Of a stretch of DNA of 44,547 bases, positions 42,726-43,038 are shown piece after piece. The position numbers and the translations under genes were made by a program. Positions within the stretch are counted from its first letter, which is position 1. Every line of letters begins with the position of its first letter. The notes below the pieces were generated by a model. The model had not been told where the DNA came from. It saw only the letters and a list, made by a program, of their open reading frames with translations, and ran no database searches. This stretch comes from Candidatus Sungbacteria bacterium RIFCSPLOWO2_01_FULL_54_21 (GTDB lineage: Bacteria; Patescibacteriota; Minisyncoccia; Sungbacterales; HO2-52-23), in NCBI GenBank assembly GCA_001820725.1, contig MHQR01000037.1, positions 1-44,547 on the forward strand, given 5' to 3'.

Positions 42726-42731
42726 GGTCAA

Positions 42732-43020
42732 CCCCCACACCTAATTTGCTTATGTTTTACACCTACCTAATCAAAAGTAAAAAGGATGGTGAGCTGTATA
42801 TTGGCTCTACCGATAATTTACGAAGGAGATTTCAGGAACACAACAAAGGGCTGAATCGCTCTACAAAATACAGAATTCCGTTTGAGCTTGTCTATTATGA
42901 GGCATATAAATCAGAAAAAGACGCAAGAGATAGAGAGCATAACTTAAAGTTGAGAACGAATGCATTGAATCAATTAAAGCGAATAATCACTAAAAGCCTC
43001 AAAGCAAATTAGGTGTGGGG
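42732..43020 (+). mobile_element. 289-bp TIR element encoding only a GIY-YIG protein, with 5-bp flanking repeat GTCAA
   Basis: TIRs CCCCCACACCTAATTTGCTT / AAGCAAATTAGGTGTGGGG; GTCAA at 42727-42731 and 43021-43025. Confidence 0.8.
42752..43012 (+). CDS. GIY-YIG endonuclease domain protein (86 aa)
   Basis: FYTYLIKSKKDGELYIGSTDNLRRRFQEHNKG; starts right after left TIR, stop codon inside right TIR. Confidence 0.9.
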   Translation: MFYTYLIKSKKDGELYIGSTDNLRRRFQEHNKGLNRSTKYRIPFELVYYEAYKSEKDARDREHNLKLRTNALNQLKRIITKSLKAN

Positions 43021-43038
43021 GTCAAGTACCATCAAATT

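Follow-up and report, generated by a model that had tools for sequence, protein, structure and literature searches.

Within the 44,547-nucleotide contig MHQR01000037.1 of Candidatus Sungbacteria bacterium RIFCSPLOWO2_01_FULL_54_21 (this whole stretch is called the window), a unit of 290 bp is made up of terminal inverted repeats (TIRs) and one open reading frame (ORF) for a GIY-YIG nuclease, and is flanked by a short target-site duplication (TSD). Comparison with related copies indicates that this unit is probably an autonomous TIR/TSD transposon, mobilised by its single nuclease and accompanied by satellites that resemble repetitive extragenic palindromes (REPs) and miniature inverted-repeat transposable elements (MITEs). 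The parts of the unit are as follows.

42728..42731, no strand: left copy of the target duplication, TCAA (from sequence; at termini of this type, exact 4-bp repeats are the rule)
42732..42751, + strand: left TIR, CCCCCACACCTAATTTGCTT (from sequence and comparison of copies)
42752..43012, + strand: GIY-YIG nuclease ORF, 86 aa, the sole gene of the element (from domain match)
43002..43021, + strand: right TIR, AAGCAAATTAGGTGTGGGGG, which holds the TAG stop codon at 43010-43012
43022..43025, no strand: right copy of the target duplication, TCAA (from sequence)

The nuclease gene and its terminal repeats

The boundary CCCCC/GGGGG was set from many copies and gives an element of 290 bp (42732-43021); the original prediction, made from the letters of the window, had put the size at 289 bp but had the minimal layout of TIRs plus nuclease right. 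The repeat arms, measured at 42731-42751 and 43002-43022, are 21 nt long, 100% complementary, and spaced by 250 nt. In the left TIR, the outer CCCCCACACC is constant among copies and the inner half varies, with complementarity always kept. The ATG of the ORF abuts the left arm and the TAG lies inside the right arm, just as had been proposed, and the encoded protein matches the Pfam GIY-YIG family (PF01541, E=5e-18). With perfect arms that score far above shifted-window controls (given below), the claim of a GIY-YIG ORF enclosed by inverted repeats is borne out.

Analysis of this ORF with Pfam and NCBIfam returned GIY-YIG family domains only. No DDE, HUH, serine, or tyrosine transposase was matched, in agreement with the original prediction, and neither was a Y1 HUH transposase, the hallmark of systems of REP-associated tyrosine transposases (RAYT) and REPs, or 23S_rRNA_IVP. 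An Rfam scan of window positions 42000-43200 at E values up to 1 found no intron, for which there is no room outside the ORF, and the window copy is not located in rRNA.

Related elements and their ends

Where the original prediction had looked to Patescibacteria for further copies with the same termini, many were found, and the family extends beyond that group and occurs in many uncultured bacteria: 154 distinct GIY-YIG elements were collected in Patescibacteria, Omnitrophota, Elusimicrobia, and others. An arm score of at least 11 was reached in 92 of 182 GIY-YIG loci (order plus phylum), compared with 4 of 1895 controls (same-geometry windows placed at shifted positions along the loci), and in 61 of 80 relatives from metagenomes (63-100% identity), compared with 1 of 1083; the shifted controls also include a set in which 5 of 803 reached this score. 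Such tight arms surround 15 of the 18 proteins closest to the family profile of the window, whose own copy scores 21. Among other small ORFs, 2 of 136 reach 11 and none reaches 13. Because shifted windows and other small ORFs so seldom reach 11, the strong arms are not a product of chance. Comparable arms occur in Brennerbacteria, Sungiibacteriota, Moranbacteria, Kaiserbacteria, and Doudnabacteria and, outside Patescibacteria, in Omnitrophota and Elusimicrobia; a Planctomycetales copy (L353) has weaker ones, and no relatives were found in viral contigs.

A terminal C-run is the constant feature over the 154 elements, and the bases that follow it form types (CCCCCACACC, CCCGTTAGAGA, CCCGTAGAGAAA, CCCCTCAC, CCGAGCAC, and others). 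These types cluster on the protein tree, with 30 changes compared with 78.6 when labels were shuffled (0 of 200 shuffles were as low), and by this measure the terminal repeats are tied to protein clade. In 622 kb of sequence, what lies between paired termini of these types is a GIY-YIG gene, a remnant of one, or no gene, and no non-GIY-YIG gene was found there. Inner arm positions are freely variable between elements and paired within each. The arms are almost purely Watson-Crick, and G.T mismatches (33) only slightly exceed A.C mismatches (24), so RNA pairing alone is a poor explanation of the arms, and a reading of them as RNA structure is unsupported by this asymmetry.

The catalytic Y, YIG, R, and E residues of the GIY-YIG superfamily are present, and Y5, Y16, G18, R26, and E62 are each kept in at least 98% of 153 element proteins. 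The median ratio of nonsynonymous to synonymous substitution rates (dN/dS) for the gene is about 0.06, which together with the catalytic conservation indicates that nuclease activity is under selection. The solved structures nearest to the element protein are those of UPF0213 proteins and SLX1. SLX1 cuts branched and hairpin DNA, and the likeness suggests that the element protein may act on extruded terminal hairpins.

Target duplication

At 46 distinct metagenome sites of the CCCCCACACC type, exact 4-bp repeats abut CCCCC/GGGGG in 16 (4.5 expected from swapped loci), and 3-bp repeats were found at 2 (2.2 expected) and 5-bp repeats at 0. The full set for this type has exact 4-bp direct repeats at 20 of 60 copies, with 5.5 expected from swapped loci. 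TAAA, TCAA, and TTTA are common duplications, and the window has TCAA. For the GTTAGA type, 4-bp repeats were present at 6 of 21 sites (1.6 expected), and the right flank is mostly TGA or TAA. The flanks of other copies are therefore nonrandom and carry the 4-bp duplication. As for the window itself, the direct repeat that had been predicted is real, but on the evidence of many copies a length of 5 bp (GTCAA) was dropped in favor of 4 bp; the G taken for a fifth base is the one that closes the right repeat.

At L237, L238, L249, and L234, adjoining elements or hairpins share one TAAA between GGGGG and CCCCC, as if the newer copy took the target duplication of the older one.

Empty sites and relocated copies

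Four empty sites were found in congeneric genomes for related copies. At the filled site L079 (genome G156), the sequence reads TTGTG, then CCCCCAC...GTGGGGG, then TGTGGATAA; the aligned place in the congener G388 has a single TTGTGGATAA, with one TGTG where the filled site has two, and homology extends into both flanks (67% identity across 220 columns). The start codons split by L136 and L171 in G098 are intact in G112, and L195 of G079 is absent from G284. In addition, G098 has an ORF-less remnant at the place of L163 in G112. In at least four independent cases, elements that share 82-89% identity have unrelated flanks (for example, L023/L269 compared with L266/L276, and L226 compared with L227).

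The original prediction had pointed to empty sites as a check, and they were found for these related copies but not for the window's own site, which is filled identically on a second contig, Ga0155321_122 (L203). Comparison of the joined flanks of L129 with its genus gave no informative empty site. A site of the same kind as L079, with the same duplication, is occupied by L336 in a Kaiserbacteria genome. These two distant elements both lie at TGTG/GATAA, a sequence similar to a DnaA box (TTATCCACA).

ORF-less hairpins

Upstream of the element, the window holds two palindromes without an ORF.

42159..42186, no strand: satellite hairpin with the same termini as the element (TCCCCACACCTATG/CATAGGTGTGGGGG), with TTTA at 42155-42158 and 42187-42190
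42607..42675, no strand: palindrome CCCCGTTAGAGAA-43 nt-TTCTCTAACGGGG, with the termini of GTTAGA-clade GIY-YIG elements

The termini of the second enclose a GIY-YIG ORF at L034. Short ORF-less hairpins with exact CCCCCACACC ends are present in 9 of 388 genomes, with up to 12 per genome, and a reversed control pattern had no occurrence in the same 388. Hairpins of 25-45 bp are flanked by an exact 4-bp duplication in 12 of 24 cases (4.5 expected), and none has one of exactly 3 or 5 bp. A reading of these hairpins as terminators was ruled out because no T-run follows them.

Insertion sites of related copies

Related copies lie within 16S rRNA (L044, L082, L090, and L143), within 23S rRNA (L054, L056, and L096), in helix P3 of RNase P RNA (L026, L076, and L094 by Rfam; L084, L152, and L159 by flanking sequence), and at tRNA 5' ends. 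At L084, the native P3 hairpin of a congener (CCCCGACTCAAAAGGTCGGGG) corresponds to the CCCCG...CGGGG arms of the element. Start codons are another site: 26 of 85 elements end no more than 2 nt from a start codon on the same strand, compared with 0 of 85 that begin at a divergent one, and many of these copies end in an A or G that, joined to the flanking TG, forms a new ATG or GTG for the downstream gene. The right neighbor has the same direction as the nuclease gene in 97 cases and the opposite direction in 11, or about 90% sense, which is consistent with a promoterless gene that is retained only where the host transcribes it.

A conserved leader (GGGCTTTGTC...CAAAACCTTT / GCTCAATTTT...AAAATTGGCATG) upstream of pheT-, rpsP-like, and other genes is struck at one point by at least four terminus types (L025, L059, L098, L168, L344, L352, L361, and L365); it had no Rfam match in the five loci tested. 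GIY-YIG ORFs of a sister class lack tight arms, and at 32 of 95 such loci (L153, L191, L123, L095, L151, and about 27 more) an intact tRNA gene follows immediately downstream. Upstream of the ORF there is often an incomplete copy (12-48 bp) of the 5' part of that tRNA. This arrangement looks like insertion into tRNA genes with regeneration of the tRNA.

The window genome

The genome that contains the window (G000; 767 kb, 37 contigs) has one further small GIY-YIG gene of the family, located between tight 20-nt arms of other sequence (ATCCCTCACCCTTCGCGCAT). A search of genome contigs with the exact left-end pattern gave no match, and a scan of the window genome found no other site resembling a transposase unit. 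PF05635, the intervening sequence (IVS) protein, had no match in this genome, and control genomes were likewise silent. Three RAYT-like Y1 transposase genes are present (C30:3696-3959, C18:28609-28830, and C36:6830-7048; L019-L021), each beside palindromes of its own that are unrelated in sequence. Directly downstream of the element in the window is a Fic/DOC family gene (43015-44097), whose possible GTG start at 43015 falls inside the right arm.

Discussion

The general features of a TIR/TSD transposon are found here: TIRs at the boundary, a duplication of fixed length (4 bp, in the window's clade), and empty sites and movement (for related copies). At the level of sequence, the comparisons establish the family, its repeats, its duplication, its empty sites, its mobility, the sense bias, and selection on the nuclease.

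That the GIY-YIG protein mobilises the unit, as the original prediction held, we infer from its co-evolution with the termini, its exclusivity between them, and its conserved catalysis; each enzymatic step that follows is likewise a proposal. The promoterless gene would be transcribed from a host operon that the element has entered in the sense direction. The protein would recognise its own outer repeat (CCCCCACACC here; the motif differs between clades), perhaps in the form of an extruded hairpin, and would free or copy the element. A staggered cut would be made at a short target (TNAA-like in the window's clade), and repair of the 4-nt gaps would produce the target duplication. Hairpins that share these ends but lack the ORF, some as short as 25 bp, would be moved in trans, as REPs are by RAYT. 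It also seems rather likely that these elements form an undescribed class in which a lone 84-90-aa GIY-YIG nuclease is the entire mobilisation machinery, with clade-specific termini, a 4-bp duplication, REP-like satellites as short as about 25 bp, and lineages that insert harmlessly in RNA hairpins or restore the start codons that they enter.

Several observations weigh against mobilisation by the nuclease. A perfect 4-bp repeat is absent from two thirds of the copies, and other terminus types give weaker or 2-bp duplication signals. Neither an excision product nor a recent within-strain insertion was seen among the copies. The sense bias is unusual for a plain DNA transposon unless it is explained by selection. 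Genomes G258 (8 hairpins) and G084 (1 hairpin) have no detectable GIY-YIG gene, and G179 has 12 hairpins and GIY-YIG genes of only moderate similarity (no more than 51% identity). These hairpins could be leftovers, or could have been moved by something else.

The main rival takes up this last point and makes the nuclease a passenger, with a conventional transposase encoded elsewhere that moves hairpins and gene-bearing units in trans, as for MITEs. It is kept alive by the 25-45-bp same-ended hairpins in genomes without a detectable GIY-YIG gene, and some known insertion sequence families also produce a 4-bp target duplication. We nevertheless regard it as unlikely: terminus motifs track the GIY-YIG phylogeny, no other gene was found between such termini in 622 kb, no transposase-like unit was seen elsewhere in the window genome, and strong purifying selection acts on the nuclease, whose catalytic residues are intact.

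Homing, or an IVS-like process at the RNA level, would have the nuclease cut empty alleles, repair copy the unit in, and RNase III excise the long hairpin from the transcript, as happens with rRNA IVSs. As an account of the family this is quite improbable, since many copies lie at unrelated intergenic sites with a 4-bp duplication, which is not a homing product, and the mismatch counts show no clear selection on RNA pairing. Copies in RNA genes may behave in such a way, which leaves the 4-bp duplications unexplained. The homing or IVS-like reading has several points in its favor: the insertions within 16S, 23S, and RNase P RNA, the sense bias, a strong RNA hairpin (z = -5.2), the leader RNA struck by several lineages, and the published GIY-YIG ORFs in non-intron rRNA inserts of candidate phyla radiation (CPR) bacteria (PMC11270868). 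That ordinary terminators or regulatory hairpins surround a resident nuclease gene that does not move is scarcely credible: gene-end hairpins are common in bacteria and the unit sits between genes, but this reading is contradicted by empty sites, by near-identical copies at different places, by units that interrupt start codons and RNA genes, by exact 4-bp duplications, and by the lack of a T-run after ORF-less hairpins.

The proposed GIY-YIG transposon shares with RAYT/REP systems a small nuclease gene between palindromic ends and short ORF-less palindromes with the same ends; it differs in having GIY-YIG in place of HUH Y1, a 4-bp duplication, and arms that pair across the gene. Classical insertion sequences and MITEs likewise have TIRs, a short target duplication, and non-autonomous short relatives, but here a single 84-90-aa GIY-YIG protein stands in place of a DDE, HUH, serine, or tyrosine transposase. 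The 23S rRNA IVS resembles the element in its hairpin stem, its ORF in the loop, and its sense orientation in the host RNA, whereas its protein is another one, most copies here lie outside rRNA, and a target duplication flanks those of the window type. The fold is shared with GIY-YIG homing endonucleases and with UPF0213/SLX1-like nucleases, but the gene here lies in neither an intron nor an intein and has repeats of its own at its limits. A 2024 survey reported that rRNA inserts of CPR bacteria other than introns can carry GIY-YIG ORFs, and deemed these outside a homing context (PMC11270868). Those inserts have the same domain, no intron, and a location in rRNA stem-loops, and some copies here are of that kind. 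The survey treats them as sparse inserts in rRNA, whereas rRNA is here one niche of a wide TIR/TSD family that also occupies RNase P RNA, tRNA ends, start codons, and spacers.

In the literature, with preprints and most subscription papers outside the scope of the search, no TIR/TSD element carrying only a GIY-YIG gene was found, and this survey was the sole partial precedent. The element may represent a novel type of transposon. If it is the nuclease that mobilises the unit, GIY-YIG would be added to the short list of enzyme folds that are known to power DNA transposition, and we know of no smaller autonomous TIR/TSD element. The proposed mobility would also explain the non-intron GIY-YIG inserts in CPR rRNA genes, would provide a mobility system for genomes poor in known transposons, and would offer for study a very small enzyme whose end sequence is defined and whose target is short.
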